Positions 1,946 to 20,690 of a DNA stretch of 64,000 nt are shown here, in pieces. The notes below the pieces were generated by a model, which saw only the letters and a program-made list of their open reading frames with translations, was not told the origin of the DNA and made no database searches. The DNA comes from Sinohyriopsis cumingii (Eukaryota; Mollusca; Bivalvia; Unionida; Unionidae): positions 124,441,928-124,505,927 of the forward strand of contig CM068838.1 of NCBI GenBank assembly GCA_028554795.2, read 5' to 3'. The number at the start of each line of letters is the position of its first letter. Position 1 is the stretch's first letter. The translations under genes were made by a program, and so were the position numbers.

Positions 1946-2012
1946 CCCTATTTTTTTAAAAGAAAAAAAGGGTAGGCAATGGAAAGTCATTCTCTTTTCG
2001 AGACCTATGAGT

Positions 2013-2028
2013 GGCCCTGAAAAGGGCC
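2013..2028 (-). terminator. Histone-type 3' stem-loop 1 (in left TIR)
   Basis: The minus-strand RNA would read AAAGGCCCUUUUCAGGGCC followed by ACUCA: a 6-bp stem with a UUUC loop, A-rich before and ACYYA-like after. A purine tract GAAAAGAGAA lies 13 nt downstream (1990-1999), where histone pre-mRNAs have the U7-binding element. It follows the leftmost gene. Confidence 0.8.
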
Positions 2029-2055
2029 TTTGGGTTTCTTCTTCTTCTTCTTCTT

Positions 2056-2653
2056 TTAGTTCCTCCACTTCTTCATCCATCCCCTTATCTTTTCTAATAA
2101 TCCTTTCTTCTTCTTCTTTATATCTGACTCCGGTAACCAGTCAGGATGGCCCAACTCTCTAAACTTCGTCTGTATCTTCATCCAATTGTTGTTAAGCCTC
2201 TCAAACTCTTCCTTTTTCTTTTTGTTTTCCACATCTTTTCTTTCTTCCCTCCATCTCTCTTTAATCTTCTCTACTTCCTCCTCCATTACTTTTCTCATCA
2301 GATCTTCCCCTTTCTTCACCTTGTCCAACCCCCATTTTACATTCCTCCACTCTGTCCAGTGCAATATCTTTTCTAGGAAGCACCGGACTTGGATGACATG
2401 GTCCAGTGCTTCCTTCAAACTTCCCACTCTGAAGTAAGGTGGGTTAATGAAGCCTCTTGACTTATTGACTTCTTCTTCTATCATCCCTGCTGATATCTCT
2501 TGCTGTCTTTAGGCCTTGAACTTGACTGGTTACCAAGTGTTTCATATCTCCATGCCTCCATTCCTCTTCTATTCTTCCTACAACATATTCTACATCCATT
2601 ATCCAAAAATAGATGTCTCTCAATAGATTAAATAAAACTGATACTTGAGTCAT
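2056..2653 (-). CDS. Polinton end-module gene 1, small charged coiled-coil protein (broken)
   Basis: Leftmost gene of the element, read toward the left TIR. The ATG at 2653 lies about 50 nt below a TATA-like CTATAAG (2704-2710) inside a repeated promoter. The body is rich in Lys and Glu and predicted helical. Its segment GEDLMRKVMEEEVEKIKERW resembles TEDLIEELFREEVNRKKEEW in the third gene of this series, so the three are probably paralogs. It ends just before stem-loop 1. It is interrupted about once. No function is recognised. Confidence 0.5.
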
Positions 2654-2703
2654 TTTGTCTCAGTTATTCCTTAGAATGGTTCCAACATCAAACTTTGTGG
2701 GTA

Positions 2704-2811
2704 CTTATAGTGAAAGCGCGGACGTGATGGAAAACATGCCCCTAAGACATAAAATTGATATTACCTAGATCATGACCAAACAACGCGCGGACGTGAAGGA
2801 AAACATCCCCC
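2704..2811 (-). promoter_or_regulatory. Repeated promoter, copy 1
   Basis: Read on the minus strand: two copies of ATGTTTTCCWTCACGTCCGC (inside 2785-2811 and 2716-2742; the second varies at one base) about 70 bp apart, then CTATAAG (2704-2710). The same box followed by a TATA-like sequence precedes the next two genes. Confidence 0.65.
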
Positions 2812-3135
2812 TACTTTCTCATTTCTTATAATCTACTATTCACATAAGTGAAGCAACATTTAACAAACCCCAAATCTACTATTTACACACTCAAATCATT
2901 AAAACAAAATCCATAATTTACTATCCACACAATCGTACGTGACCGGTTACAAAACCCTAACTATACTCTCCACATACGCTAAGAAACAATAAACAAACCC
3001 ATAATCTACTATTCACACAAACGTACGTGAGCGCTTACAAACACAAACACACAAACACAAACACAAACACATACCCTCACACTATAAAAAAAGAGTCAGT
3101 GTTTATATTCACACTAGTCTACCTACACACACTGG
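2812..3135. other. AT-rich spacer with short repeats
   Basis: Non-coding spacer of the left end module. It holds several copies of AATCTACTATTCACAC-like sequence and ACGTACGTGA, and ends in an ACAAACAC run. A related spacer lies at 3690-3925, so spacer, gene and stem-loop were duplicated together. Confidence 0.6.
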
Positions 3136-3171
3136 CAAATGGATTGTTATTTCTTTTCTAAAGGTTTGGGT

Positions 3172-3187
3172 AGCCCTGAAAAGGGCT
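3172..3187 (-). terminator. Histone-type 3' stem-loop 2
   Basis: The minus-strand RNA reads AGCCCUUUUCAGGGCU followed by ACCCA. The second base pair is G-C, as in histone stem-loops. A purine tract TAGAAAAGAA (3151-3160) lies 11 nt downstream. Confidence 0.8.
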
Positions 3188-3277
3188 GTTTGTTTTTGAA
3201 CTCCAGATGCACCTATCTAATGCTGGCACCTTCCTGGTCTGGCGCCACACACACACATCTTCTTCCCCAGTCTCCTT

Positions 3278-3532
3278 TTACCTTTGTTCTTGGGAGTGCA
3301 GAGGCGGGATAAGTGGCTTCAGAATCCCAATTTTCTGTCTCTGGGATTCTGAAATTTCTTCTCTCCTTTTCCTCCTCTTCTTTTTTCTTCTTTCCTCCTC
3401 CTCTCTCATCCTTCCCTCTTCGACAATGGCCTCCGCGGCCAGTTCATTTAACAGGCGCCTGGCATATTCCAGGTGCATCTGGAGTTCTAGCAGTTTCACA
3501 ATTCTGGTGTTCATTCTGGTGGTGTTGATCAA
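3278..3532 (-). CDS. Polinton end-module gene 2, 84-residue charged protein
   Basis: Starts 37 nt below CTATAAA (3569-3575) of the second promoter copy and ends about 90 bp before stem-loop 2. It has an N-terminal helix (LLELQMHLEYARRLLNELAA) followed by a very basic and acidic tract (EEEERRKKKRRKRREE). Position, size, promoter and 3' end match the flanking genes, so it is probably a member of the same small family. The basic tract could act in nuclear localisation or nucleic-acid binding. Function unknown. Confidence 0.55.
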   Translation of the reverse strand: MINTTRMNTRIVKLLELQMHLEYARRLLNELAAEAIVEEGRMREEEERRKKKRRKRREEISESQRQKIGILKPLIPPLHSQEQR

Positions 3533-3568
3533 TCAACAAGGGTAGCTAGACTGCCGAACGAGTTTCAA

Positions 3569-3660
3569 TTTATAGTAAAAGCGCGGACGTGATGGAAAAC
3601 ATCCCCCTAAAAACATAAAATTGATCTTACCTAGATCATGACCAAACAACGCGCGGACCT
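3569..3660 (-). promoter_or_regulatory. Repeated promoter, copy 2
   Basis: Contains ATGTTTTCCATCACGTCCGC (inside 3581-3607) and CTATAAA (3569-3575). A second, decayed upstream box begins at 3651. The 60 bp between them are nearly the same as in copy 1. Confidence 0.65.
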
Positions 3661-3689
3661 AAAAGAAACACTCACTTTTTTATACTACC

Positions 3690-3925
3690 CATTACTATTC
3701 TAAAAAATTTTCATTAATCACTTCAATATACTATCCACATACGCAAAGCAATCAAACCCCAAATGTACTCTCCCCACACCTCTAACAGCCAAAAAACATG
3801 ATCTTAATCTACTATCCACACCAACGTATTTGAGCACTTACAAACACACAATCCTATACACAAACACATACACTCACATCACAAAAGAGTCGGTGTTTAT
3901 ATTTACACTACTCTACCTACACACA
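3690..3925. other. AT-rich spacer, second copy
   Basis: Related to the spacer at 2812-3135: AATCTACTATCCACAC, GAGCACTTACAAACACA and a shared downstream stretch ending TGGCAAATGGATTGTTATT. No open frame of note. Confidence 0.55.
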
Positions 3926-3965
3926 TTGGCAAATGGATTGTTATTTTTTTTCTAGAGTATTGGGT

Positions 3966-3981
3966 AGCCCTGAAAAGGGCT
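3966..3981 (-). terminator. Histone-type 3' stem-loop 3
   Basis: Same stem and UUUC loop as stem-loop 2, followed by ACCCA. An A-rich purine tract (3943-3953) lies 12 nt downstream. Confidence 0.75.
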
Positions 3982-4008
3982 GTTTTTTTTGTTTGCTATG
4001 GCAATCTT

Positions 4009-4374
4009 TTAGTTTCTAAGAATGCGACGTCCTTTGAGGATAGACTTTCTGACGATAGGTCTGCTTCTTCGGAAAGAGAAGAAGAACTCTTTGGTGTCGA
4101 TACGACAATCGACAAAGCCTCTGTCAGGTTCAGGTTGCTGCTGCTGATGCTGCTGCTGTTGTTGTTGCTGTTGCTGCTGTCTCTGAAGTCTGTACTTATC
4201 TGTCCATTCTTCTTTCTTCCTGTTCACTTCTTCTCTGAAGAGCTCTTCTATCAGGTCTTCAGTGACTTTTAACATTCTCACATTCTCTATCTCTTCTGGC
4301 TTCGGTATCAGACTGTGTCTGACCCTATGCAAATTCACGTAGGCTTCGTTTAGCTTAGCTAGTTTGGAGCACAT
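4009..4374 (-). CDS. Polinton end-module gene 3, glutamine-rich charged protein
   Basis: 121 residues from the ATG at 4374. A longer frame opens at 4503, but it would run through the promoter box at 4441-4467, so the inner ATG is preferred. The N-terminal half is helical, with TEDLIEELFREEVNRKKEEW like gene 1. A polyglutamine tract follows, mostly CAG/CAA with one His, then a basic C-terminus. It ends 28 bp before stem-loop 3. It may regulate the element or bind nucleic acid; no known domain is recognised. Confidence 0.6.
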   Translation of the reverse strand: MCSKLAKLNEAYVNLHRVRHSLIPKPEEIENVRMLKVTEDLIEELFREEVNRKKEEWTDKYRLQRQQQQQQQQQQHQQQQPEPDRGFVDCRIDTKEFFFSFRRSRPIVRKSILKGRRILRN

Positions 4375-4428
4375 CTTCGTAGGAGGATGAGTCGACAATG
4401 GATGGTTAGACTGAAGGCTACCCCGGTT

Positions 4429-4467
4429 CTTAAAGTCAAAGCGCGGACGTGAAGGAAAACATCCCTC
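4429..4467 (-). promoter_or_regulatory. Repeated promoter, copy 3
   Basis: One box ATGTTTTCCTTCACGTCCGC (inside 4441-4467) followed by CTTTAAG (4429-4435) in place of the TATA. It lies about 55-95 nt above the ATG at 4374, the same layout as copies 1 and 2. Confidence 0.55.
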
Positions 4468-4593
4468 CACGGTTTTCGAGCCGCAACGTTCAATGAGTGT
4501 CATGAGAGGGATAGTAAGAAGTCAAAGAGCATGAATCAAAATTCTTATAGCCAAACAAAAGACAAAGGCATGTTTTTTCAAAACACAACATTT

Positions 4594-4599
4594 TTTATT
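4594..4599 (-). terminator. Polyadenylation signal after the capsid/protease genes
   Basis: AATAAA on the minus strand, 88 nt beyond the protease stop, in AT-rich sequence. No histone-type hairpin is seen here, so this transcript appears to end by ordinary polyadenylation. Confidence 0.55.
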
Positions 4600-4686
4600 C
4601 AAAATCACTTAACACTAACCAACAACTCTAACATTTTTAACAATAATCCAACAATATAACATCAAATATATTTTTCAATTTACACA

Positions 4687-5247
4687 TTATTTTGGACAGG
4701 GTTGGCAACGTTGTGAATGAAATTGTGATTTCCACTGTTGGAAGTCATTAGGCCATTGATGGACACTACGTTTCCTAGCTTGAGACAAAAGATAAGCATA
4801 ATGGTCACAAAACCATTGATTTACTTTCACATCGTTTCTAGAAGAAGAACGAGGATCAAAATGAGTCACTAAATGTTCTAAAGAATAGCCCATGCTGCGA
4901 TGATGCAGAAAATACACACAATATTGTCCACACACCAAGGAATCTGTTCCTTGTATTTTCACATTATTAAATCGGGTGGTCTGAGCATTTCTTCTCATAA
5001 AGTCAATGATATCGTCTTCCAAAGGGGGCAATCCGTACGAATCAAAATATTCCACACATCCTTCTTGAGGAAAGTTGACGGCTACACAGTGGGTTCCTGG
5101 GAGATGACTGTCGTCCGTGTTGATGACATAAGCTTGATGGTCTTGAGGTTTGCGATGAGGGAGTTCATCTTTAGCACAGACGACAGGATTCCATGAAGCC
5201 GTGTACGAACTGTGGTTCAAAAGATAATAAAGTTCCCAGGTATCCAT
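4687..5247 (-). CDS. Adenovirus-type cysteine protease (adenain-like)
   Basis: 186 residues in one open frame. The catalytic pattern of the adenain family is visible: GTHCVAV (His53), VEYFDSYG (Asp69) and CGQYC (Gln108, Cys110). Family members cleave virion precursor proteins during maturation; Polintons call this gene PRO. Length is close to the family norm of about 200. It is the last gene of the leftward morphogenesis block, downstream of a conserved HPSQ-motif gene. It looks whole. Confidence 0.9.
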   Translation of the reverse strand: MDTWELYYLLNHSSYTASWNPVVCAKDELPHRKPQDHQAYVINTDDSHLPGTHCVAVNFPQEGCVEYFDSYGLPPLEDDIIDFMRRNAQTTRFNNVKIQGTDSLVCGQYCVYFLHHRSMGYSLEHLVTHFDPRSSSRNDVKVNQWFCDHYAYLLSQARKRSVHQWPNDFQQWKSQFHSQRCQPCPK

Positions 5248-5265
5248 TGATTTGTATGGTTTTCT

Positions 5266-5753
5266 TCACAGGTAATAATAAGTGATCAATTCGATCCTGA
5301 CTTTTTGCTTGAAAATGTCTGACAAGTAAAAGGCGTTTAGCTTCGTCTCCCCACTCGGATTCAGGACAGCTTCGATACGGTGAATCTCTTGAGTGGTTAA
5401 TGGTGGACAAGAATGTTCACGCAAGTCTTTATACCACTGATGCAACACGACTTCGTCCGAGATGAGACTCCAAGCTTCGTCCAGATACTCGTCCAATTTT
5501 TCTTCTTGACTCAGCATCAGGCATTTATCGTGTTGAATTTGACTGGGATGATCGTTTTGACATCCATAGCAATCTTCCTTGATCAATTCCATCATTTTTT
5601 CCACCAAGTGTTTGGCAAAACAGGAGACTAAATGGGCTTCTTGTTCTGGCTATCTTGACTTCATCATGATCACTTCTTCTTTTTCCAGGGTCTCCTCACA
5701 TTCCATCTCCAAAGTTTCTCCACTAGGTAAAGAGGGATAACAGTCTTCCATGG
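5266..5753 (-). CDS. Conserved Polinton protein with CYGC...HPSQ motif (broken)
   Basis: The downstream part has CYGCQNDHPSQIQHDKCLML, a Cys/His-rich motif I recognise as recurring in Polinton-like elements between the major capsid and protease genes. The spacing of Cys and His suggests a small metal-binding site. The rest is acidic and helical. It is interrupted about once. Function unknown; from position, it probably acts in particle assembly. Confidence 0.55.
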
Positions 5754-5756
5754 CTT

Positions 5757-6085
5757 CTAATAATCTAGAATGACTTCTCTCAAACTGTTGATTTCTATCG
5801 TATTGTCGAATTCTGCATACAGGATGACGTTCACCGTTTTATCAGGCTCTCGTTTTGCAAACTGAATTTCCACACGAATCTGGCCGGATTTTATAGGGTG
5901 GAAATGTCCCTCTCCGCTGCCTTGGGCTGACCTTTGATGTCAAACTCGATGGGAGCAGAATCCGTCAAAGAGGAGACCGGGTGAAATTCCACCCATTGGG
6001 ATTCTTGCATGGTCATCATGGTAGGGGGCATGGCAAACAGATCCAGTTCCGACTTGGAACAATCGCAAGACTCTCGGTGCATCAT
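5757..6085 (-). pseudogene. Major capsid protein, short remnant
   Basis: The start region has the hallmark N-terminus of Polinton major capsid proteins (KSELDLFAMPPT, WVEFHPVSSL, SAPIEFDI). The end region has VNVILYAEFDNTIEIN and REVILDY, typical of the family's C-terminus. At about 330 bp it is far shorter than a double jelly-roll capsid gene (about 600 codons), so this is a broken remnant. Confidence 0.8.
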
Positions 6086-6106
6086 TTTTTTATTTTTTGT
6101 TCTTTC

Positions 6107-6532
6107 TCAGTAATCGAAAACGTCTAAGTCTCGAACGGTTCTTCTTTTCTTGGCCTTTCTAGCTTTAGAAGTGTGAAGTCTGGTGAAAGGGTGTTTTCTT
6201 CGTCGTCTCTTTCTGCCTTGTCCTTGCTGAATGCCTGACTCGGTAGCGTGCAGGGCATTTATAGGTGTGTCTCGTCGACCCAAAAGGTCTTTGCCCGTTT
6301 GCAGCAAGACATTTTTGCCTGCCCTTATGAAGGCTTCTTTGGGGTTTTGTTTGTCGATGATGACATTTTGGAGAAATTCTTTGCCTTGCGTCAGTGCCGC
6401 ATCTTTCAAGGCGTGCAATCCGCGTGTCGCCATCGGTTTCAACACCGGGGCCACCGAACGAAAGGCCGATTTTAACATATCTCCTAAACCGTGTCCTCGC
6501 TGTCGAGCAACCCCTCGGTACACTGGATACAT
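6107..6532 (-). CDS. Small basic virion protein (core/pVI-pX-like)
   Basis: 141 residues. The N-terminal PVYRGVARQRGHGLGDML and the following hydrophobic-amphipathic stretch (FRSVAPVLKPMATRG) resemble small minor virion proteins that sit beside the penton in Polintons and adintoviruses. These have been compared with adenovirus pVI or pX. The C-terminal third is strongly basic (GRKRRRRKH, SKARKAKKRRT), suiting DNA or capsid contact. It lies between the penton and the capsid remnant. The exact role is inferred. Confidence 0.65.
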   Translation of the reverse strand: MYPVYRGVARQRGHGLGDMLKSAFRSVAPVLKPMATRGLHALKDAALTQGKEFLQNVIIDKQNPKEAFIRAGKNVLLQTGKDLLGRRDTPINALHATESGIQQGQGRKRRRRKHPFTRLHTSKARKAKKRRTVRDLDVFDY

Positions 6533-6535
6533 GAC

Positions 6536-7465
6536 TTACGAGTCGTGAGAGAACCGTTTTCGAAAATGGAGTTTCACCGTGACTTTTCCTTTGGTGAATG
6601 GAATATTTTGTCCCAGATCTCCTTTTATAGCAATGTTGACCGTGTCCAAATACGACTTGCTCACAGGCAAATAGTGAGGATGTACAAATTCGCGGTGGAC
6701 GTGGTAAGTGTTTCCACCTTCCTCGTCAGTGACCGTGACAGAATCCACTTTGAAAGGAATGACACGCAGTAACGGTACGGAGGTGTGTCCCACCACGTTA
6801 TACTCCACCACATCGGAGTACACAAACATCAAATTCAGTCCTTGGTTCAGTTCTACCGGGGCACGAAAAAACTTGCCAAAAGACTCGTTGTCGTAAATGG
6901 CTGCTGATTCGGGTTTTTGTTCTGTTTTCTTCCTCAGCTCCATGTCCCCGCCCAACATGTCAAACAATTCAGGACAAAATAAAATGGACACGATTTTACT
7001 CCGGTCAAATTTCATCAAGAAGCGACGAGCTGCTTTGTGGTATTCCATGGTGACACTTTTTTGGGCACTTTCCAAAGCTTTCAGAAACGCGACATTAAAC
7101 CTGGAGGCTATGGTGCTCACCAAATGTTGACCACTAAAATAATAGCCTGGGGGAATAAACAAGTGGTAGGTCCACGTTTGAGTTTTGTCATTATAGGCTT
7201 TGTGATCATATTTGACATGGGTATTCAAGTACTTTTGCAATGACTCGTCATGAACTTCCACCGTAAAAATATTTTGATTGGGAAGGACATTGAGGACTTG
7301 GGTCGGGTGAATGATTTCCACTAAAGCCACTTCCCAATGGGCTTCATGATCTAATGGGATGGCCTGAGGTAATTTGGACGTGTAACAGCACAACATGTTA
7401 TGGGGAAACACCTCCATGGAACTGTCACTGGGTAAGGTTAAGTAAAATTGGTTTTGGTGACTCAT
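6536..7465 (-). CDS. Penton/minor capsid protein (Polinton PX-type)
   Basis: 309 residues in one open frame. The start FYLTLPSDSSMEVFPHN, with HWEVALVEIIHPTQ soon after, is characteristic of the Polinton minor capsid protein, a single jelly-roll that forms the vertex. No membrane segment or signal peptide. The ATG at 7465 is supported by the motif beginning within seven residues. Its 5' end overlaps the stop of the upstream membrane-protein gene by a few bases. It looks whole. Confidence 0.8.
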   Translation of the reverse strand: MSHQNQFYLTLPSDSSMEVFPHNMLCCYTSKLPQAIPLDHEAHWEVALVEIIHPTQVLNVLPNQNIFTVEVHDESLQKYLNTHVKYDHKAYNDKTQTWTYHLFIPPGYYFSGQHLVSTIASRFNVAFLKALESAQKSVTMEYHKAARRFLMKFDRSKIVSILFCPELFDMLGGDMELRKKTEQKPESAAIYDNESFGKFFRAPVELNQGLNLMFVYSDVVEYNVVGHTSVPLLRVIPFKVDSVTVTDEEGGNTYHVHREFVHPHYLPVSKSYLDTVNIAIKGDLGQNIPFTKGKVTVKLHFRKRFSHDS

Positions 7466-7872
7466 AATTCCAGAGTTCTGTGGCTGTCCGAGGGGTTACT
7501 GGACGTCAGAGGCGTGTCTCCGCCCAAAATGGGGTTCTGGTTGTTGTTGAAGTGGTGACTGGCACTGACACTGGACACAAGGTTCCCGTGGTTCCCGTTC
7601 GAAGAGAATTTCAGGGAGGGATTGGGAAGCAGGTAACCGATGCAACTGCTCAATAAAATGGTCCACAATTGTTTGTCTCCTTGTTGCAGACTCAGATTGG
7701 CGATGGCTGCCCCGATGACACAATACACCACAAAGATTTGGCAGAAAAAGACGATTTGCGTTTTAGGCACACGTTCTCCACACCACGCCCACAAGGGTTG
7801 TTTTTGTAAATCTTGCACAGAAGAACTGGGTGAAGGAGTGGACGACGTAGCTGCGTCTGTGTGAAAGGGCAT
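7462..7872 (-). CDS. Small membrane protein of the capsid gene block
   Basis: 136 residues from the ATG at 7872. It has a Ser/Thr-rich N-terminus, then CGERVPKTQIVFFCQ leading into a hydrophobic segment (VVYCVIGAAIANLSL) and a second weaker one (LWTILLSSCIGYLLPNPSLK). The latter motif recurs in invertebrate Polinton-like elements next to the penton gene. It could be a virion or entry membrane protein; no enzyme motif is seen. CTATAAAAAG lies at 7884-7893, unusually close to the ATG. Confidence 0.6.
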   Translation of the reverse strand: MPFHTDAATSSTPSPSSSVQDLQKQPLWAWCGERVPKTQIVFFCQIFVVYCVIGAAIANLSLQQGDKQLWTILLSSCIGYLLPNPSLKFSSNGNHGNLVSSVSASHHFNNNQNPILGGDTPLTSSNPSDSHRTLEL

Positions 7873-7877
7873 GATGG

Positions 7878-8987
7878 TCACTTCTTTTTATAGTCGATGA
7901 CTTGCGAAGCGTCGATCCAATAATCAAAACTGGGTGGATGTCCTTTCCAACGTACTTTGACTTCTTTGACACGTCGTTTTCCCACTTTACGAGTTCTGCG
8001 TTCGAGAATGCTTTCGATGTTGTACACGTCGTCTTCTTTTTTGGTGACACGTTGTAACTCGGGTAAATAAAACGTTCCTTTGAGCACTTCTCCGTTCATG
8101 TCTTCTAATTTATAGACGGCAGGATGACGGCCATGCACTCGTCCAGTGACACGAAACAATTCGGTCGTCCAGTTAGGTAAGTAACCTTTGCCAAAAGTGC
8201 GTTTGGTTTTGCCAATGCGCACCCAATCTCCTACGGTCAACACTCCACTTTTCTTGGGGAAGCTCTCGTCGGGGACGTACCAAACAGGCGCTCAAACACC
8301 AACACTTCGTTCTCGGGAGTCACTTCTTGCGGGGCACGTCCGATGCTTCGATGGTAAGATTGGTTGTACGCTTGTACCAGGTGCGGTAAGATGTCGATGT
8401 ACTTCAGAGTGTGGTGATGCGTAAAATATTTCCACATGCGTTCTTTCAAAGTGCGTTGAAAACGTTCCACGATGCTGGCTTTGGTTTCGGGATTCTCGGT
8501 GGTAAAAAAGATGAATGTCACGTTTCTTTAATTCTTTTTGGAAAGCTTGGTTCAGAAATTCGGTGCCTTTGTCCGTTTGCCATCGAAGAGGGTGACGACC
8601 GCTTTGTTTCAACACTCGTTGCAGGGCTCGCACTAACTCGCTGCTCGATTTGGAAGTCAAGGGTACGACCCAGGCAAATTTGGAAAAGACGTCGATGACA
8701 CAAAACAAATATTTGTAGCCACGATTGTAGCTGGCCAAATGAGAGACATCGGCTAAATCGGCTTGCCATTGATGATCGATGCCTTCCACTCGGGTGCGAC
8801 TTTTGCCAAACTTGCGTCGAATGGGTTTGTGTAAAGTGTAGGTAGCTTGTTCTTGTAACCATCGTTGCACTTGAGGTAAACGGAGACTTTTCAGTCGAGT
8901 TTTGGCAGCACGATACAATTTTTGAACTCCTGCGTAACCTGCAGGATGCGAGGGATCGTAGTAAATGCTGGCTAACACTTTTTCCAT
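7878..8987 (-). pseudogene. Polinton integrase with C-terminal chromodomain (broken)
   Basis: DDE-type integrase (rve family), which joins element ends to host DNA. Visible parts in order are an N-terminal region (YDPSHPAGYAG), the catalytic core (WQADLADVSHLA with first Asp, LRWQTDKGTEFLNQ with second Asp), and a C-terminal chromodomain-like segment (YNIESILERR, VKVRWKGHPPSFDYWI). Chromodomains can steer insertion by reading histone marks. The likely start is the ATG at 8987; an earlier ATG at 9092 would overlap the preceding gene heavily. It is interrupted about twice. Confidence 0.9.
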
Positions 8988-9003
8988 TTTTTGTGTTTGT
9001 GTG

Positions 9004-9627
9004 TTAATAAGGTACCCACTCTTGGAAGATGCTACTGTTTTTTTCTTGGGGTACTTTCTTGGATTGCAATGCTTTGCGTGTGCGACCGGCAATAGGTGTT
9101 GAAGAGGAGGATGTCTGAGCGGGGGATATCGGTTCTTGTTTCACTTCTGTCTTCACTTCTGTCTTCACTTTCTTTTTCTCTTGTGATGAAGAAGGGGTGG
9201 TCATCATCTTTTTAATCCATCCAATTCTGGAGGTAGGTGGTGTTGTTAACTTGCGTACTTTTTCTGGTGGAGTTTGAAACCCTTCTTCTTCTTCTCCTTT
9301 TTCTGTCTTGGTCACTGGTAGTGGTGGTACTGGTGATGGTGCTGGACTTTTCATCATGGTCTTAAAATCTTTCAGAGTGGGTAGAGCTGTTTCGTTTAAA
9401 GCTTTCTGGTGAAAGAGTTGCATTCGTTGTAAGAGTTGACCGTACTTTTGCGATTTTTCTGTTTCGGACAAATCTTGGCGATGCATCAAGGACTGCAATT
9501 CGTGTTGTAACTGGGACATCTCGCTCAAATGGGGATTGGGAGGTAAATGCGGGGTGCGTTGTTCTTGCCAACGATGGTGTTCCATCCATCGTTTGTAAGG
9601 CACTAAACCTAGTTTTCGTCCTTCCAT
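9004..9627 (-). CDS. Conserved Polinton protein with N-terminal LVPYKRW motif
   Basis: 207 residues. The N-terminal third is helical, with LGLVPYKRWMEH, PNPHLSEMSQL and LSETEKSQKYGQLLQRMQ. I recognise this layout from Polinton-like elements, where it precedes the integrase. The remainder is low-complexity: Pro/Ser-rich, an EKGEEEE stretch, and a VKTEVKTEVKQEP repeat ending in EWVPY. A GATAAAAAGG box lies about 45 nt upstream. Function unknown; perhaps a virion scaffold or DNA-associated protein. One open frame. Confidence 0.6.
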   Translation of the reverse strand: MEGRKLGLVPYKRWMEHHRWQEQRTPHLPPNPHLSEMSQLQHELQSLMHRQDLSETEKSQKYGQLLQRMQLFHQKALNETALPTLKDFKTMMKSPAPSPVPPLPVTKTEKGEEEEGFQTPPEKVRKLTTPPTSRIGWIKKMMTTPSSSQEKKKVKTEVKTEVKQEPISPAQTSSSSTPIAGRTRKALQSKKVPQEKNSSIFQEWVPY

Positions 9628-9676
9628 GGGGTTGTCAGGGGTCGATTCTGAGATCTTGGGACTTCAGAGGGCCTTT

Positions 9677-10081: not shown

Positions 10082-10130
10082 CTTTGAGTCTTCAGCACCA
10101 AAAACACTGATACCCCGACTTGGTCACAGG

Positions 10131-10142
10131 CCTTTTTTATAC
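10131..10142 (-). promoter_or_regulatory. TATA box of the basic core-protein gene
   Basis: TATAAAAAAGG on the minus strand, about 50 nt above the ATG at 10081. Similar boxes sit at 11119-11128 (before 11082) and 11925-11934 (before the ATPase), so neighbouring genes appear to have their own promoters. Confidence 0.55.
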
Positions 10143-12714: not shown

Positions 12715-13133
12715 GGCAGCCTGTTTTTATAGTGTCTTTGTTTCGAAAAGAATTTAAATGTTGCATACTGTAACCGAAACGTCAGAGATCGTTTAGAAGT
12801 TTCCTCTTCCACTAAGTAGATTCCACGTAAAATATGTCGGTAATCCTTTACCTTGTCTTCCTCAATGTGTTGTACTAGGTGAATCTCGAAGTAACCAAAA
12901 TGATCAACACGTCGATCATCGGGTGCCTGGAAGTATTGAACAAGGTCTGGCCACTGAAACAATTTCTGACGAATCAGTTCTTTTATACCATTCAGGTACC
13001 AGTGGTTAAAAATCTGGCGACGTAACGGATGCAACTGTTCTTTACGTTTGACTTGTATTTTGACCAGCTCTCGGTAAATGCGTTCTCTGAACTCCACAGG
13101 TAAAGCACGAATATTCTCTAGCAAAGTATCCAT
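12690..13133 (-). CDS. F-box-like protein, tandem copy 1
   Basis: 147 residues. The N-terminus (NIRALPVEFRERIYREL) has the LPxE...I..L pattern of an F-box helix, followed by VKIQVKRKEQLHPLRR. The rest is a family-specific domain with VEEETSKRSLTFRLQYATFKF near the end. F-box proteins join substrates to SCF ubiquitin ligases, so this could redirect host protein turnover; without an alignment the F-box call is tentative. The N-terminal 33 residues are nearly identical to the next gene, with much lower identity afterwards. Confidence 0.6.
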   Translation of the reverse strand: MDTLLENIRALPVEFRERIYRELVKIQVKRKEQLHPLRRQIFNHWYLNGIKELIRQKLFQWPDLVQYFQAPDDRRVDHFGYFEIHLVQHIEEDKVKDYRHILRGIYLVEEETSKRSLTFRLQYATFKFFSKQRHYKNRLPCHDFYHM

Positions 13134-13145
13134 GAATAGGTCATA

Positions 13146-13601
13146 CTAAATCCTCTTTTGTCTGACAGAAGAAATGTACCGTTTGCACAGACGTGGTTTT
13201 ACTTCAGTGCCAAATTTAAATCGTTTAGTCACTAATTTACACATTACAATTCGTTCAGAAGTTTCCTCTTTCACTAAGTTGACATTGTGTACAAGATGTT
13301 GGTAATTCGTTAACTCTTCCTGTGGAATTCGATGCAGTACGTTTACAATGTAGTAGATAGAATCATCAATAACAAACCAATCCTTTTTAAAACTAGGGGA
13401 TCGTTGATCAATGTCTGTCCAATGGAACACTTTCAACTGAATCAGTCCTTGTATAGCATTCAGGTACCAGTGGTTCAAACACCGGTGACGTAACGGATGA
13501 AATTGTTCTTTACGTTTGACTTGTATTTTGACCAGCTCTCGGTAAATCCTTTCTCTCAACTCCACAGGCAAAGCACGAATGTTCTCTTGTAAAGTATCCA
13601 T
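13146..13601 (-). CDS. F-box-like protein, tandem copy 2
   Basis: 151 residues. It begins NIRALPVELRERIYRELVKI, nearly the same as copy 1, then diverges (HWYLNAIQGLIQ, VLHRIPQEELTNYQHL, VKEETSERIVMCKLVTKRF). The gene spacing and the sequence just before each ATG are also similar, so the pair arose by tandem duplication within the element. One open frame. The most likely role is host interaction through ubiquitin ligases; this is inference from the N-terminal motif. Confidence 0.6.
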   Translation of the reverse strand: MDTLQENIRALPVELRERIYRELVKIQVKRKEQFHPLRHRCLNHWYLNAIQGLIQLKVFHWTDIDQRSPSFKKDWFVIDDSIYYIVNVLHRIPQEELTNYQHLVHNVNLVKEETSERIVMCKLVTKRFKFGTEVKPRLCKRYISSVRQKRI

Positions 13602-13623
13602 AAACAGGTTATGGTAAGTTACT

Positions 13624-14367
13624 TCAATGTCTCGGTCCCACTAAGGGTAAGTAATGACAATTCGGTGACCATCGAGCATGTTCTACGTAGGCCGAATCTT
13701 GCGGTTCCCAGTGGTGAAGTGACACACCGCAACTGAAGCACTTGACTTTATCTCCTTCGCCCAAGTAGAACAATCCGGCTCTGGCTAATTCTTCGGGGGT
13801 CGGTCCTCCCAGATACTTAGGCCATTTTCCTATGAACGATTGAAGACGATTTTCAAAGTCGCAGTATTCCGACAAACGCACAGGAAACGAATATTCGTCT
13901 TTCACAGGTTCGTTTCGATGAGGGTTGGGTGACATGAACAGGAGTTTGCCCAGGGCTGGATGACATCCGTAGGGAGGTAAACGTGAAGGTCGACATTCCC
14001 CTTTAAAACGAAACCCAGTAAAATGTCCAAGAGGACGAGTGGCATCGCGTTCGCATCCCTCAGGTTTGACACGCACAGCATCACTTTCCATGATAGGGGT
14101 AGTGAGAACAAAGTTCCCATGATGCTTTACGGCATCGCTAAGGTCACAACGTACAGCATCGTACCCATCGCAAGGCTCACAATCGCACTCGTCTGCAACC
14201 TCCGTTACGCAATTACAATGGTAACCACATGGACAATCGCAGTTTCCTTCCGGACATTTTCCGTCGCAATGCCTGGGTCTTATCCATCCAGTATTAGTCA
14301 CACTAGAGGAAGATACAACTTTTTTACACTCCCCAAACTGAAACGATGTCTCTTTCAAAGTATTCAT
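13624..14367 (-). CDS. Single-BIR inhibitor-of-apoptosis protein
   Basis: 247 residues in one open frame. The C-terminal 80 residues are a BIR zinc domain: RLQSFIGKWPKYLGG, then LARAGLFYLGEGDKVKCFSC, HHWEPQDSAYVEHARWSPNC. The zinc ligands are about Cys210, Cys213, His230 and Cys237. No RING or CARD follows. Residues 33-66 form a cysteine cluster (CDGKCPEGNCDCPCGYHC) of unknown fold. BIR proteins bind caspases or their antagonists, so an anti-death role in infected cells is likely. A strong TATATAAAAGG (14421-14431) lies about 55 nt upstream, inside the polymerase 3' end. Confidence 0.85.
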   Translation of the reverse strand: MNTLKETSFQFGECKKVVSSSSVTNTGWIRPRHCDGKCPEGNCDCPCGYHCNCVTEVADECDCEPCDGYDAVRCDLSDAVKHHGNFVLTTPIMESDAVRVKPEGCERDATRPLGHFTGFRFKGECRPSRLPPYGCHPALGKLLFMSPNPHRNEPVKDEYSFPVRLSEYCDFENRLQSFIGKWPKYLGGPTPEELARAGLFYLGEGDKVKCFSCGVSLHHWEPQDSAYVEHARWSPNCHYLPLVGPRH

Positions 14368-14389
14368 CTTGTTCGCTTGGTCTTGGTAG

Positions 14390-17300
14390 TCACAATGAAC
14401 TATCGATCTTGCCTAGGGTTCCTTTTATATACAGACCAATACCAACGTGTCCATACGGTAAGGTGAAATGATTGGGAAGTCGCACTCGCTTCTGGTACAC
14501 AATTTGATAGACTTTTTCCAAGGGTCGACTGACGATGTGGTGAGTAGGTAAACGTACAACCTTGTTCGGTTGATAGGTGGTCACTTTAAAGTTTCCATCC
14601 TCTCCCGATTGCAAGGCTTCTTTCAGTACCCCAAAGTTGACCATTCGACTGGTACGATAATTCAGAGTCAATCCTTTCACTTTGCACTGCGTGTGCACTT
14701 CTCCTTGTTTGTCCCGGTATTCGTAACCGTAATTCTTAGGACCGCCACTGGCGAAACTTAGAATCTTGTCGTCGGGATGCTCGTCTGTCCAGGCTCCTAA
14801 ACGGTCTCCTTCGATGTCAGGCTGCTGTTGACTCGGGTGATGGATGTAAATGCAACTGTCCGTGTCAAAGTACAGGACGCGTTCCCCTAACAGTTCTAAA
14901 GCTTCGTGCAATTTTAAGCGAGCATGAGCTGTCACGTAAGCTGCAATGATGACATTTCCAAAAGGGTCGTCTTGTACAAAGTCCAGATCTTCTTCGTAAT
15001 TGACCAAGATCAAATCCTCGCGAACGACGTCCACGTGTTTCATGTATTTGGTTTTGTCGTGAATCATCTGGAAGTAGCGGAAAGGTTCGGTCAAATACTC
15101 CATCTTGGGTAAACATGGTCGTTGTGCCATTTTACCCCACAAGCAATTTAACATCACTTTGGCAAACGATCGCCTGCCTTCGTTTTTCTCGATGTGGTCT
15201 AAAGAGATGCCTTCTTGTTCATAGTATTTCTCTTTGAATTTTATTTGGTCTTCGGGAGTGTGACACCAGGAAGGATAGCCGCTGGCTTCTTTGCTTCAGT
15301 TTCAAAAAGACATCCACGTAGTCAGCGAAAATGCCTTTCTGCGTGGGGTCACCCTTGTGGTATTATTGTTTCTTGGGAAAGTGGCAAATTGCGTACACTT
15401 CTAACAGTTGGTATCCCATGTCCAGAGCTTTGAACAATTCTACGCTGACCCAGGTTCCCGTCAAGGCCCGTTCTTCCTGGGTGTGCTGACAAGGCTGATC
15501 TTGGTTGCACGTTTCGGCACAAGTACGACACAAAGGAAACATCAGTTTGCCTTGGCAATGGTGAGGTAACACAGGATGGTACAAGTCCGTGGGAGGCAAA
15601 ACTTTACACTTGATCAGACCTTCGTATTGTCGAATGTTTTTCAGGTCAATGTGTTCCGTCAACAATTGTGGGTGCCCTGCAGGAAAGCGACAATATTTGC
15701 ACACGTAGGGATACAGCGAACACACGTCCAAGTATTTCATTTCTTCTCCTTTCTCTTCGTCGGCTTGGTACAGAAAACAGGTGGCATTGGCTCTTTCTCC
15801 GTACAAACTATCCCTCGGTTTCAGCGGGTCCATGAACTGGTAACTTTCCACGAGGCATTTAAACTCGGGATCGGTTTTCAAACGGTGATCGTACTCGTGT
15901 TCCCACATTTCCACCACTTGGTATCCTTCCTGTTCTAACTGTAGGCGTCGCTGACAAGTGGCCTGGTACAAGTCTTCCATGGTTCGTTGTAAAAACTGAT
16001 TTTTAGTGTCACGATCAGGGTAACAGACGGGACATCCGTGAAATAAGCAACCGTTAAACTCGTACACGATCTTGGGGTTTTCTAAGTCCCAACCATCGAC
16101 CGAATGCGTTCCGATGCTCTTTTCGCCTCCTCCGTTGCGGGCATGCTGAATCCATTTGTCTTCCTTGTCGCACAAGTAACGTAACCAGCGTGGGGCTTTG
16201 ACCGAGTATTGACGTTTGACATAGTGGGTCGTTTGAGGACTGATGATAGCCACGGTCTTTTGAGGCATGAATCGTTGCCGGTACACTAAGGAACACGCTT
16301 TGGCAATGGTGCAAACTTCTTTCAAAGGATCGACCCCTCCGTGTTCCATGAACAGTTCTCGAAATTTTCCACAGCATCGCCGTAAAAGGTCCACGTCGGA
16401 ACGACAATACTTTAGCATTTCTTCCTGAAAGTCGAAAGGGTCCGAGGCGTGAGCCTGGTACCAAGCATAGAAAGCTTCTCGTTGTTCGGTACGCATGTTG
16501 TCGGGGTCGTAATAGTGAGCCTCGGGTAAATGGGGTATAACGGCGTGTTGATTGGCTTCCGTATTGAAAAAGTGTGGAAAGTACCCTTTAGCCATTTCTG
16601 TCATTCCAGACGTTTTAGGCATTCGACTCAAAGGCATGGCCAAGTAACTCATCGAATCTTTAAACTGTACTTGTCCCACTTGCATGAAAATGATTTTGGC
16701 TCCGTTCGAAGTGACTTTAGGACGTTCGGTGCCTTGTTCCGTATAGTATCTCAAAAGAAACTGTCCATCGTATCCGAGAAATTGTGAGCCATCACTGTGG
16801 CATGACGATGACAATCTCCGTAACGTTCGATGTCCTCTTGGCTCCACGTCTTGTCGATGGGGTCTAAGACCCATTGGGCAAAATCGGCTAACGTGTTCGG
16901 TCCTCGAAAGATTTTTTCACGTCCTCCAGGAATCTTGCTGCAGTGAGGGCAATGACTGAAGATAGGTTCTTGAATGCACTTCTCGCACGCTCGATGAGCC
17001 ACGCAGAAATTAGGAATGTGAATACCGGTCTCTTGCATGCATTCGAAATCGAAAAAGATGAAATTGCCTTTCTTCTTGTGACCATCCTCTTTCTCTGGTG
17101 GGGGTTGGTATTTTTGCACGTAGCATTCGTGTTCCAAGTCCACGATGTGGTGACAAATGTGACATTTTTCTTTCCTGAACATACGTGTGCCTTGGCATTA
17201 TTGGTACGTAGGCCTTGTCCACACGTAGGACACAATCTCAGGAGTTGACAAGCACATTTCTGCTGTGAACCTTGCGTCTTCAGATGTTGTTGGTAACAGG

Positions 17301-18468
17301 CATGGCTGACAAACGTACGCAGACAAGCAGGACAATGTACTCTTTCTTGTCCTTCGCTCAGACAGGGTGGAGAGGTCAAACATCCTGTGCATTTCCATCC
17401 GCAATGTTTGGGTTGCTCTCGATTGTTATAGCCAAACTCGCATTTCTCACAGTAATAACTGTATCCTAGGAATCCGGGGATGGCGGTAATGGTATCAAAA
17501 TGGTCATCGTGATAATAGACATGAATGTATTTTCCGTCCTTAAAGTCTTTCCCGCGAAACAACAGAGGTCCGCGCACTTCTTGAGGGTGCACTTTCAAGG
17601 TGTAGAGTGAAGCTAGGGCATCTTGCAATTTTTGCATCTCAGAAATGCCACAGGGTGTGTCTTTGGACAGTCCGGCTTGTTGTAACAGGAGTTCTGCTTC
17701 ATTTCGTTGTTTGGCTCGGTCCGATTGTCGAATAGTTTTCCAGGCTGTTTTCCATTCTACCGTGTCGTTCTTGTTGGCATAGGTTCGTCCCACCACGATG
17801 GCACGGGCTAAACACATCTGGTCTTGAGGGTTGTTAATTCGGACGAGACTCTTTTTGGTGCTGCGAAGCTCGTTCACCAGTAACACCTTATTGCGTTGTC
17901 CGGTCCCTTGAGGAGGAGAGACGTGGGTCATGTCCAGTGTGGCTTTACCATCGGTGATGTCAAACTGGTCATTAGATTGTTGCACGTGTTGAATCTTGTC
18001 CATGACTTTGGAAGCAGTTAGTTCTGCGGGTCTGCTAAACTCGATCCAAACAGAGGATTTCAAACCGTCGTGTTGTATGGAAAGTCTCAAGCGATCGTCT
18101 TCTTTGGGTTGACATTGTCGCTTGAGTGCGGTGAGCAAAGAATCCCACACCCCAGTGATGAACCCTTCTGCTTTCTGTAACGGTACTTCAGCCTTGAAAT
18201 CTTTAAACTTCACCGTGTATTTGTAAGCCGTGGTTCTAAATTTTCTAGAGGAGCGCTTTTCCGTCTCTCGAATGGAATAGTACTTTTCGGGGTTGACTAA
18301 GGGTGGTGAACTTTGTTTAGAGGATTCGGATTCTGGTTCACTCATGTCCTTTTCAAAATCACTGACATGAATTTGTGCCAAGACTTCAACCCTGGTACGA
18401 GGCGATAGATCACGTTTCTGCCTCTTACTTTCTTCTTCTTTCTTCTCGAATGAATTGGATCGTTTCAT
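14390..18468 (-). pseudogene. Protein-primed type B DNA polymerase of Polinton (broken)
   Basis: The replicase of the element. In order: an N-terminal Lys/Ser-rich part; the region with QDQMCLARAIVVGRTYAN that I associate with Polinton polymerase N-termini; Cys/His clusters (YCEKCEFGY, CPTCGQGL); the exonuclease motif FIFFDFECMQETG; polymerase motif A (YLDVCSLYPY); motif B (LNCLWGKMAQR); and motif C (YFDTDSCIYIH). About 1,300 codons, normal for the family. It is interrupted about three times. CTATAAATTAG (about 18513-18523) lies about 50 nt above the ATG at 18468. The 3' end carries the promoter of the IAP gene. Confidence 0.92.
14421..14431 (-). promoter_or_regulatory. TATA box of the IAP gene
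   Basis: TATATAAAAGG on the minus strand, 54 nt above the IAP ATG and just inside the polymerase coding end. This layout implies separate transcription of the IAP gene. Confidence 0.65.
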
Positions 18469-18602
18469 CTTGAGTGCAAAACGTCAAATGACTCAAGTTT
18501 AAACACCATAGACTAATTTATAGTCATGGCAGACCAGCGTATATAAAAGGGTGTGTGTCTTGTCCTTTCACTATTCATTTCACTCTCAAACCGAGCACAA
18601 CG
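18469..18602. promoter_or_regulatory. Divergent promoter: polymerase (left) and zinc-knuckle gene (right)
   Basis: 134 bp between the two start codons with one TATA box for each direction: ACTATAAATTAG on the minus strand near 18513-18524 and TATATAAAAGG on the plus strand at 18540-18550. The two genes would share this control region. Confidence 0.7.
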
Positions 18603-19055
18603 ATGGAAGAGACTAGACAGATCGAACATTTCATCAGAGCTTTGCGAGGGGTCATTAGAAAATTCTCTTCAGACCAGCCGACGGACTACTCTCCTTCCTT
18701 TCGAGATAAAAGTCAAGATACTTGCTATATCTGTCAGAAGAAAGGGCATTGGTCTTCAGAGTGTCCAGACCGTCAAAAAAGAAAAAAAGGGGCTAGAAAA
18801 GACAAAAGTCAAGATACCTGTTATTATTGTCAAGAAAAAGGACATTGGTCTCCAGATTGCCCAAAAAAGAAACAAGAGGAGTCAGAAGAAAAGATGGATT
18901 CTTCAGAAGAAGAGAGGGATTCTTCAGAGGAAGAAAGCAGCCAGGTAAAGAAAAAGAAACAGGAGAAGAAAAGAAGAAGGGAAGAAAGTGAGGAAGAAGA
19001 GGAGGAGGAGGAAAAGACTGTGACGGTGAAGAAATTTAAAAAACAGAGAGACTAA
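18603..19055 (+). CDS. Zinc-knuckle protein with acidic/basic tail
   Basis: 150 residues from the ATG at 18603, about 55 nt below a strong TATA box; an upstream in-frame GTG would fall before the likely transcription start. It carries two CCHC zinc knuckles in near-repeat (CYICQKKGHWSSEC and CYYCQEKGHWSPDC), each preceded by DKSQDTC, so one arose from the other. The tail alternates Ser-Glu-Glu and Lys runs. CCHC knuckles bind single-stranded nucleic acid. It runs against the polymerase gene. It may bind replication intermediates or RNA; the role is inferred. One open frame. Confidence 0.75.
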   Translation: MEETRQIEHFIRALRGVIRKFSSDQPTDYSPSFRDKSQDTCYICQKKGHWSSECPDRQKRKKGARKDKSQDTCYYCQEKGHWSPDCPKKKQEESEEKMDSSEEERDSSEEESSQVKKKKQEKKRRREESEEEEEEEEKTVTVKKFKKQRD

Positions 19056-19293
19056 ACAATGAGACAGAAGAAATGTATGAACTTTTTAAAGTGCTCTGTT
19101 GTGAATTGGATTGTAACTATTGATGAAAGAATACATTAATTATATAAGGTAAGTGTCTTTGAGTTTTGATTTTAAAATAAGAAGCTACACTCACGCACTC
19201 ATATACACGTACTATAGGGGTAAAATGTTTTTTTTTTTTTTGTTTTTTTGAGTAATTGGCAATTGAAAGTTTATCTCTTCGAGAGACGTGGGT

Positions 19294-19309
19294 GGCCCTG
19301 AAAAGGGCC
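19294..19309 (-). terminator. Histone-type 3' stem-loop 4
   Basis: The minus-strand RNA reads AAAGGCCCUUUUCAGGGCC followed by ACCCA, the best match of the five to the metazoan histone consensus. A purine tract GAAGAGATAA (19271-19280) lies 13 nt downstream. It follows the gene at 19449-19901. Confidence 0.85.
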
Positions 19310-19448
19310 TTTTTTGGTGAAGGGGTGAGTTTAAGCAATCAACTTTAACTGTCTTAAGCCTTTGCCACGGCCAAGGCCTACTTCTAGACTGCGTACTGTT
19401 GATGATGATGATGATTTGGTTGAAATCACTAAGGGTGGTACGACAGGC

Positions 19449-19901
19449 TTAGTCAGGGTTGACGTGTTTAGCTCGGGAAGGTCGTATTCTCTTTGGTCGT
19501 GATAAAGAAGTCTGATATATTTGTTTCAGACTTCTTAACTCCGCTAAAATGTCTAACAGTACCGTGACCGTTTGATTTTCACCCTCTTGTTTCTTTGCTG
19601 CTACTTCTTCTTGTTGTTGTTTTCTTCTTACCTCTTCTTCTTGCTGCTGTTGCTGTGGGAGAAAAGCTTGTTCCGCTTCCTTTTGTCGTTGTATATATTT
19701 CTCCAATTCTCCTTTCTGTCTCTGTCTAAAATTCTCCACTTGCGGTAATGAAGAAGGTGACGAAGGTTCCGGAACAAATTCTTGCGAGGTAAGAAAATCC
19801 ACAAAATCCCAATTTACCTCTTCTGAAAGTAAGTCCGGGTTCCCTTGGGCGGTCTCCACTGCTGGTGCACCCCAATGGATCGTTTTCTGAGTTTCCGTCA
19901 T
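19449..19901 (-). CDS. Gln/Glu-rich coiled-coil protein of the right end module
   Basis: 150 residues. An acidic N-terminus (SEEVNWDFVDFLTSQEF) resembles activation-type segments. A Gln/Glu/Lys coiled coil follows (LPQQQQQEEEVRRKQQQEEV), then a leucine-rich helix (VTVLLDILAELRSLKQIY) and a basic end (RPKRIRPSRAK). This fits a regulatory protein, but no known domain is recognised. It has a TATATAGA box with CACGTG/TGACGTCA above and a histone-type stem-loop below. One open frame. Confidence 0.55.
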   Translation of the reverse strand: MTETQKTIHWGAPAVETAQGNPDLLSEEVNWDFVDFLTSQEFVPEPSSPSSLPQVENFRQRQKGELEKYIQRQKEAEQAFLPQQQQQEEEVRRKQQQEEVAAKKQEGENQTVTVLLDILAELRSLKQIYQTSLSRPKRIRPSRAKHVNPD

Positions 19902-20120
19902 GTTGAATCACTGTCGCATAGATTGACTGCACACAGGCGCTAGCGAATCTATATAGACCACGTGACGTCACAGACTGCTCTCTTCGGATTGGATGCGGGC
20001 TGACTGAATTTTGTCACGCGTGTTTGGATTGGTGAATGAACTCAATCCGTTTCAATCCTTCCTCTACCTATAAATAAGCGCAGTTGACTGCATTGATTCA
20101 CCTGTTCTCGTCGCCTCAAG
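19902..20120. promoter_or_regulatory. Bidirectional control region with E-box and CRE
   Basis: Lies between the divergent right-end genes. TATA-like boxes point both ways: CTATATAGA on the minus strand near 19947-19957 and TATAAATA on the plus strand at 20069-20076. CACGTG (19959-19964) overlaps TGACGTCA (19963-19970), a full CREB/ATF site. Two perfect factor sites beside a TATA box suggest host-factor-driven transcription of both end genes. Confidence 0.65.
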
Positions 20121-20354
20121 ATGTGGACCACAGTTGAATCATCCACCCTTGTGTCTTCAATGATGTTTAGGACGGACATGCTCATGTATGTCCGATCCAG
20201 GTGGACCGTTGTCCATAGGACAGACACCAGTCTGTGGATACGTAGGATCTACGTAGAAAGACAAGGATGCCTCAAAAGAGTGCTGATTTACGGTCCTACA
20301 GTGAGACGCAGCCTAAGGACAAGAAGAAGACCAATGCGGTGCCCCTTATGTTAA
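20121..20354 (+). CDS. Small Arg-rich protein of the right end
   Basis: 77 residues. The ATG lies 45 nt below TATAAATA (20069-20076), and the stop lies about 25 bp before the stem-loop in the right TIR. It is rich in Arg, Val, Thr and Met, ending RRSLRTRRRPMRCPLC. No known domain. A small gene set between a clean TATA box and a histone-type 3' end is credible as a real transcription unit, and it mirrors the leftmost gene by running toward its TIR. Confidence 0.5.
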   Translation: MWTTVESSTLVSSMMFRTDMLMYVRSRWTVVHRTDTSLWIRRIYVERQGCLKRVLIYGPTVRRSLRTRRRPMRCPLC

Positions 20355-20370
20355 TGGATACATTAACATA

Positions 20371-20690
20371 AACCCAAAGGCCCTTTTCAGGGCCACTTAT
20401 AGGTCTCGAAAAGAGAATGAATTTCCATTGCCTACCCTTTTTTTTCTTTTAAAAAAATAGGGTCCCATTCCATTTCCCCTTGAGGCTCAACAGGCCCAAA
20501 CGTCTTTTTCTTCCAATGTTAAATTCCCTTGAGGCTAAACAGGCCCAGGGTTTTTTGCCCATGTTAAATTTCCATTGAGGCTAAACAGGCCCAGGGTGGT
20601 TAATGTTAAATTTCCATTGAGGCTAAACAGGCCCAGGGGGGTCTGTAATGCTAATTCCCATTGAGGCTAATCTAACCCACTATACTACTA
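20371..20690 (-). repeat. Polinton right terminal inverted repeat
   Basis: Reverse complement of 1718-2037 with about two base differences and one A-run length difference. It contains the same sub-terminal repeats and stem-loop. Confidence 0.95.
20379..20394 (+). terminator. Histone-type 3' stem-loop 5 (in right TIR)
   Basis: The plus-strand RNA reads AAAGGCCCUUUUCAGGGCC followed by ACUUA. The purine tract GAAAAGAGAA (20408-20417) lies 13 nt downstream. It follows the small gene at 20121-20354. Confidence 0.8.

Follow-up and report, generated by a model that had tools for sequence, protein, structure and literature searches.

The window analysed here is a stretch of 64,000 nucleotides from the bivalve Sinohyriopsis cumingii (assembly GCA_028554795.2, contig CM068838.1, positions 124,441,928 to 124,505,927 of the forward strand), and it carries a Polinton of 18,974 bp at window positions 1716-20689. 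The element was flanked by a 6-bp target-site duplication, ATCGTG (1710-1715 and 20690-20695), and bounded by terminal inverted repeats (TIRs) of about 320 bp (1718-2037 on the left; 20370-20689, or to 20690 in one listing, on the right), which were complementary to each other over 255 nt at 100% and over 87 nt at 94%. A type B DNA polymerase (PolB), a retroviral-type integrase and a match to an A32-type packaging ATPase were found together with these repeats and the duplication, as in Polintons. Five small genes lie towards the two ends of the element, A to C on the left and D and E on the right, and each of them is followed by a hairpin of the kind that ends replication-dependent histone mRNAs. 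We hold with good confidence that these end genes are built like the replication-dependent histone genes of the host, an anatomy that suggests mRNAs without poly(A), probably peaking in S phase.

The first-pass annotation of this DNA, made by a model from the letters alone, had listed five 16-nt hairpins, and all five were present with zero mismatches to RGCCCTTTTCAGGGCY. Its interpretation of them as metazoan histone 3' ends was supported by the Rfam family RF00032 (Histone3, gathering cut-off 34 bits), which detected the five sites with scores between 31.1 and 36.5 bits. Hairpins A (2013-2028, - strand; 36.5 bits), D (19294-19309, -; 34.5 bits) and E (20379-20394, +; 35.5 bits) passed the cut-off, and B (3172-3187, -; 31.1 bits, E 2e-5) and C (3966-3981, -; 32.0 bits, E 8e-6) were below it. 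Each hairpin folded alone into a 6-bp stem with a 4-nt loop, and a UUUC-type loop and an A-rich 5' flank were present in all cases. The first base pair of the stem was A-T in B and C and G-C in A, D, and E, and G-T pairs occurred in some copies. No sixth site was found within the 64 kb at up to two mismatches to the consensus. The hairpins were also commoner than chance, since 100 shuffles of the window gave 0.08 sites on average and none reached five; these shuffles, along with a genome-wide reversed control (3 matches vs. 56,759), ruled out chance hairpins. The five sites are not independent of one another, as A and E lie within the TIRs and B and C within a 113-nt direct repeat.

Every hairpin stood in the same sense as the small open reading frame (ORF) preceding it. 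Gene A (2056-2484, -) encodes a basic protein of 142 amino acids (aa; isoelectric point, pI, 9.7) and its stop codon is 27 nt before the hairpin. The ORF of gene C (4009-4503, -; 164 aa) also stops 27 nt before its hairpin, and an internal start at about 4374, downstream of the promoter box described below, would give 121 aa. Gene B (3278-3514, -) encodes 78 aa, again basic (pI 10.2), with 90 nt between stop and hairpin in the window copy. Gene D (19449-19901, -) is 150 aa long in the window copy, where an early stop leaves 139 nt to the hairpin, and gene E (20121-20354, +; 77 aa, pI 11.6), the ORF followed by the only plus-strand hairpin, stops 24 nt before it. No Pfam family, histones included, was found above its cut-off for the A-E proteins. 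Genes A and C showed weak similarity (E 0.005 in one comparison), the B vs. C alignment was at chance level (E 7), and A and B showed no similarity.

Related copies in the same genome allowed these spacings to be compared. For the right end, we used 20 of 85 listed PolB matches, chosen by their DNA polymerase and not by a hairpin, which with the window gave 21 sequences. Gene E was open, with 76-78 aa, in 20 of the 21, its stop lying 18-30 nt before the hairpin; gene D was 183-194 aa long in 15, with the stop at 21-29 nt, and the window gene D was one of the six copies ending early. For the A-C side, eight loci picked by RF00032 were compared with the window. The distance from the stop of gene C to its hairpin was 26, 27, 29, and 37 nt in the four copies with an ORF match, and for gene A two of four copies had intervals of 27 and 21 nt.

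The histone genes of the host, arranged in repeats of about 8.3 kb, provided the yardstick. One repeat was analysed, with five genes; H3 was checked with Pfam, and the other four we take to be H4, H2B, H2A, and H1. All five ended in RF00032 hairpins (35.0-39.4 bits), the distance from stop to hairpin was 27-38 nt, and the motif GAAAAG started at position 30 or 31 (numbered from the first base of the hairpin) in all of them. In the window, the purine tract that had been claimed to follow every hairpin, where U7 snRNA would pair, stood as GAAAAG at position 30, 13 nt past the stem, at three of the five sites, namely A (1988-2000, -), B (3148-3160, -), and E (20407-20419, +). At the other two the tract was altered in the window copy, reading GAAAAAA at C (3941-3954, -) and GAAGAG at D (19269-19281, -); the D-site tract read CGAAAAG in 19 of the 20 sampled relatives and CGAAAGG in the remaining one. 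As a separate observation, the word TTGCC began 48-50 nt from the hairpin start at all five element sites and at 52 nt in host H2A; it was not found in the other four host histone genes, and it is possibly a further 3' signal.

Likeness to the host genes was found upstream as well. A box of 22 nt, ATGTTTTCCWTCACGTCCGCGC (box 1), occurred upstream of gene A twice (2716-2737 and 2785-2806, both -), upstream of gene B (3581-3602, -), where it is part of 24 nt identical to the host H2B promoter, and ahead of the internal start codon in gene C (4441-4462, -). The same box is present in host H2B, with near matches in host H1 (one mismatch) and in host H2A (three mismatches, on the other strand). A second box at gene B (box 2, 3648-3668, -) is identical over 21 nt to a stretch of the host H4 promoter. 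Box 1 of gene B directly precedes a TATA box, gene A has TATAAG in that place and gene C has no clear TATA. When the whole window was compared with the host histone repeat by blastn, only hairpin sites and promoter boxes matched at E<=1e-3; weaker matches (E 0.003-0.45) included further hairpin and box sites, a few unrelated positions and a simple repeat.

The likeness of the end genes to histone genes is argued from their uninterrupted ORFs, with a stop usually 18-37 nt before the hairpin (in intact A, C, D, and E; B is looser), from a distance between tract and hairpin equal to that of the host, from the lack of a nearby AATAAA or ATTAAA, and from the boxes shared by A-C. Taken together, the combined reading of hairpin and tract is supported in its anatomy and strengthened by the promoter boxes, and the best reading of the pattern is that A-C copy a histone gene at both ends and D and E at the 3' end only. 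The same features bear on the possibility that the hairpins work as DNA, as signals for binding, replication or integration whose likeness to histone ends is accidental. The location of two of the five within the terminal repeats would fit such a role. Hairpins B, C, and D are outside those repeats, however, and every hairpin has the orientation of the gene before it, with G-T pairs in the sense strand; the spacing to the stop codon and to the purine tract is that of host histones, and the promoters match too. With these points on the other side, we regard a DNA signal as the least probable of all the explanations considered, with hardly any chance of being correct.

The histone boxes were not found in the promoter of genes D and E, a divergent one that serves both genes and has TATA motifs. 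Histone-type processing could serve solely as a way of ending, exporting and translating mRNAs near the termini independently of poly(A), with no restriction to S phase, for instance in early embryos or in the germ line, where SLBP is abundant. Such a role would agree with the occurrence of hairpin and tract at all five genes when D and E lack histone boxes, and with the position of hairpins A and E, which sit with their purine tracts in the inner ends of the TIRs, a useful place for stopping transcription before the termini. For processing alone, the histone boxes of A-C, at B directly before the TATA box, would nevertheless be superfluous. We consider this more limited role unlikely, though a possibility of some weight.

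Genome-wide counts, made in the host genome of 2.9 Gb, indicated that the element is extremely abundant. The hairpin core occurred 56,759 times, and 48,130 of these cores (85%) had GAAAAG at exactly position 30, compared with none in the reversed control; among host histone genes only H2B has the exact core counted, the loop or the stem being different in H3, H4, H2A, and H1. The check proposed in the first-pass annotation, to look for the same arrangement in related elements, was made on these copies, and hairpin and tract were found at fixed spacing at tens of thousands of places, a result that lends strong support to its interpretation. Exact copies of box 1 amounted to 31,316, with none in the reversed control. 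Among 52 boxes listed from the first 2.93 Mb of contig C1, a same-strand hairpin was found within 1 kb downstream in 40, and an opposite-strand hairpin within 1 kb in none; for 23 of the 52 there was a same-strand hairpin up to 1 kb upstream, taken here as belonging to a tandem neighbour. The first 100 listed copies of box 1 formed about 45 clusters when counted by hand, from which end modules numbering, in order of magnitude, ten thousand can be extrapolated, an unusually large Polinton expansion.

When RF00032 was run on the whole genome, 75 of 589,472 candidates were scored. Twenty were aligned as stretches of at least 2 kb, 20 more were available as 501-base stretches and underwent the hairpin scan only, one (L073) was scanned for promoter boxes only, and 34 were left out. 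The top matches might have been taken for host histone genes; this was wrong for all 20 aligned loci, each of which matched the element. In the 40 RF00032-selected loci, at up to three mismatches, GAAAAG was at position 30 in 52 of 68 sites and missing in 16. Box 1 was present in all eight analysed loci spanning the A-C side, and none was found on scanning L073, L075, and L076 for promoter boxes.

These numbers also bear on the possibility that the direction of transfer was reversed or mixed, with the element, which is far more numerous, as the source of the promoter boxes in the histone cluster of the host. The 31,316 box copies favour such an origin, as do the best hairpins of the element, which outscore those of the host histones with RF00032 (up to 45.6 bits vs. 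at most 39.4). On the other hand, the boxes differ among H2B, H1, H2A, and H4 and sit at each promoter, as a native element would, and at E<=1e-3 the histone repeat contained nothing else of the Polinton. We regard a transfer from the element to the host as improbable.

The sample chosen by PolB gave a measure of conservation. The main blocks of all 20 copies aligned with the window at 86-92%, and hairpins D and E were recognisable in every copy. Each of the resulting 40 sites had at most one mismatch, the 16-mer was identical in 34, and all six pairs were kept in 38; GAAAAG was at position 30 in 36 sites, at 29 in two and missing in two. A stricter scan, in which stem bases 2-3 and the loop were fixed, recognised both sites in 17 of the 20 copies. 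Mean pairwise diversity among the 21 right-end sequences was 0.012 for hairpin D and 0.023 for hairpin E, vs. 0.110 and 0.161 for the rest of their 3' untranslated regions (3'UTRs); the purine tracts gave 0.082 and 0.062, and the coding regions 0.048 and 0.152, for D and E, respectively. The ratio of nonsynonymous to synonymous polymorphism (pN/pS) was 0.18 for gene E (pS 0.41; 20 of the 21 copies, L103 being dropped) and 0.40 for gene D (15 of 21, six dropped).

These values are of interest for a further alternative, namely a relic, in which fragments of a histone gene, captured on a single occasion, multiplied passively and have no current function. The high copy number, the resemblance of the element to histone 3' flanks, and those copies of A and B that are broken or lack the usual spacing speak for it. 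Hairpins D and E were, in contrast, about nine and seven times less variable than the rest of their own 3'UTRs; purifying selection acts on gene E, the first-base change between B/C and A/D/E is a paired one, and a hairpin has been kept at five gene ends. A mere relic seems to us very improbable, slightly more so than the reversed transfer.

Polyadenylation signals were also inspected. No AATAAA or ATTAAA was found within 250 nt after any of genes A-E, and one was found at this distance for three of the 18 other ORFs of the element. On the coding (-) strand AATAAA was observed four times, vs. 12.4 expected. Three of these signals follow ORFs, namely the one starting at 4687, which looked protease-like by eye, and those at 6107-6532 and 11963-12346. 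The fourth, at 15245, is located 118 nt after the PolB ORF and before the ORF at 14390-15157, and may be intragenic because both flanking ORFs match DNA polymerase. An element with two classes of gene end, hairpins for some genes and AATAAA for others, is possible; the idea is kept only as a weak one, given that 15 of the 18 other ORFs likewise had no nearby signal.

Several results weigh against considering the end genes as histone-like. In addition to the weak contrast in poly(A) signals, the possibly intragenic AATAAA and the lack of histone boxes at D and E, hairpins B and C remained under the Rfam cut-off, and the window copy itself has changed tracts at C and D, an early stop in gene D and a long interval after gene B. 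Among the copies of the A-C side, one gene A was broken, at 60 nt, and another was without a recognisable hairpin of its own; for gene B the interval between stop and hairpin varied from 25 to 207 nt and several copies were broken. With such a high copy number, much of the conservation reflects common descent; other 16-mers of the right end were equally or more invariant (hairpin D ranked 83rd and E 214th of 1370), and the coding diversity of gene D was likewise low. The processing factors of the host were not recovered either: a search of the host genome for U7 with RF00066 gave no matches, its control being likewise silent, and so did the family search for SLBP, again with a silent control, and two U7 patterns gave 7 matches (3 in the reversed control) and 15 (13 in the control). 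The sequences of the seven pattern candidates were read, and no Rfam family matched them at E<=1. No related element of another species came up when the IMG/VR database was queried with PolB, integrase and ATPase. That database had no matches to a strict hairpin pattern; in the 19 contigs found with a looser pattern none combined an A-rich 5' flank with GAAAAG at position 30, and none of 11 matches to a pattern of hairpin plus tract had the full stem.

The remainder of the element was consistent with a Polinton. Part of the DNA polymerase B was found at 15363-16874 (-; PF03175, 2.8e-26), and a second ORF at 14390-15157 (-) matched a DNA polymerase family (PHROG 1907, 1.4e-18). The retroviral-type integrase is at 8292-9092 (-; PF00665, 7e-15), and an ORF with a chromodomain, according to Pfam, adjoins it. 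The A32-type packaging ATPase was a partial match at 10985-11794 (-; PF04665, 3.5e-6) with 27.1 bits, vs. a cut-off of 22.8, over only 26 aligned residues. No capsid or protease family was matched among the element ORFs scanned with Pfam and PHROG, and the ORF at 4687-5247 resembled a protease on inspection by eye only. An ORF with a BIR (inhibitor-of-apoptosis) domain was present at 13624-14367 (PF00653, 1.3e-21). Between gene D and the polymerase region, a zinc-knuckle (CCHC) ORF occupies the other strand (18603-19055, +), with neither a hairpin nor AATAAA in the 250 nt downstream of it. A gene duplication inside the element is suggested by two adjoining ORFs at 12690-13601, of 147 and 151 aa, which a 214-nt direct repeat with 85% identity overlaps. 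Elsewhere in the genome, PolB copies occurred in tandem runs of four (C9:84674874-84739828, with a spacing of about 21 kb, and C9:15380811-15411605, about 9.7 kb), and a group of copies with near-equal scores and long open frames (about 1350 aa) may represent a recent burst. Outside the element, the window contains tandem repeats of about 38 nt (37469-38892) and about 21 nt (31421-32019).

We know of no description of histone-type gene ends or promoters in Polintons, and the usual teaching confines 3' ends of the histone type almost entirely to replication-dependent histone genes. Judged against that gene class in animals, the end genes are alike in the 6-bp stem, the 4-nt loop, the A-rich 5' flank, the tract at position 30 or 31, the closeness of the stop to the hairpin, the short uninterrupted ORF and, for A-C, the boxes; they differ in encoding non-histone proteins of a mobile element with no Pfam family above cut-off. 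Compared with Polintons (Mavericks), the element shares PolB, the integrase with a chromodomain ORF, the A32-type ATPase match, the TIRs and the 6-bp duplication, and it differs in the histone-type ends and promoters of its end modules. The first-pass annotation knew of no report of such ends in Polintons. This largely holds for the literature searched, where the exception was a count by RNA scan of histone 3'UTR stem-loops (n = 6) in a collection of Polinton-like virus and virophage genomes (PMC12220804). Those stem-loops belong to the same RNA family and occur in related elements; in the section of that paper on non-coding RNA they are a bare count, without gene context, tract, promoter, conservation or function. 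Some animal viruses, adintovirus relatives, are also linked to histones, in that they carry histone-like proteins (Histoid), according to PMC11071296; there the link is a protein, whereas in the element of the window it is the RNA 3' end and the promoter of non-histone genes.

According to PMC7614891, the level of SLBP increases ahead of S phase and the protein binds the hairpin, U7 snRNA pairs with a downstream element so that cleavage takes place after the hairpin, and the resulting histone mRNAs are contrasted with polyadenylated ones. Bivalve histone mRNAs carry stem-loops and, in some genes, purine elements (PMC6210712). Were the same machinery to act on the Polinton, SLBP of the host would bind the hairpins of the end genes, and the U7 small nuclear ribonucleoprotein would process the transcripts with SLBP into hairpin-ended mRNAs without poly(A). 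The shared promoter boxes would put the transcription of A-C under the histone programme, and the end-gene proteins would be made mainly during host DNA replication, when a self-copying element would need them. We infer this S-phase expression because the 3' parts sit at the spacing of the host and the promoters of A-C match. That the outer genes mimic host histone genes (at promoter and 3' end in A-C, at the 3' end in D and E), their proteins being made only during replication and by way of the host machinery for histones, with the histone locus body as a possible site, is in our judgement a little better than an even proposition.

If this proposal is true, an entire regulatory class of host genes is mimicked by a DNA mobile element, whose tens of thousands of hairpin sites might also load the SLBP and U7 pool of the host. 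Poly(A)-selected RNA-seq would miss the transcripts of the end genes, and the biology of the histone locus and the control of the element could be tested on each other. The arrangement would also offer a simple answer to the question of how a self-copying element times its genes to the cell cycle of the host.

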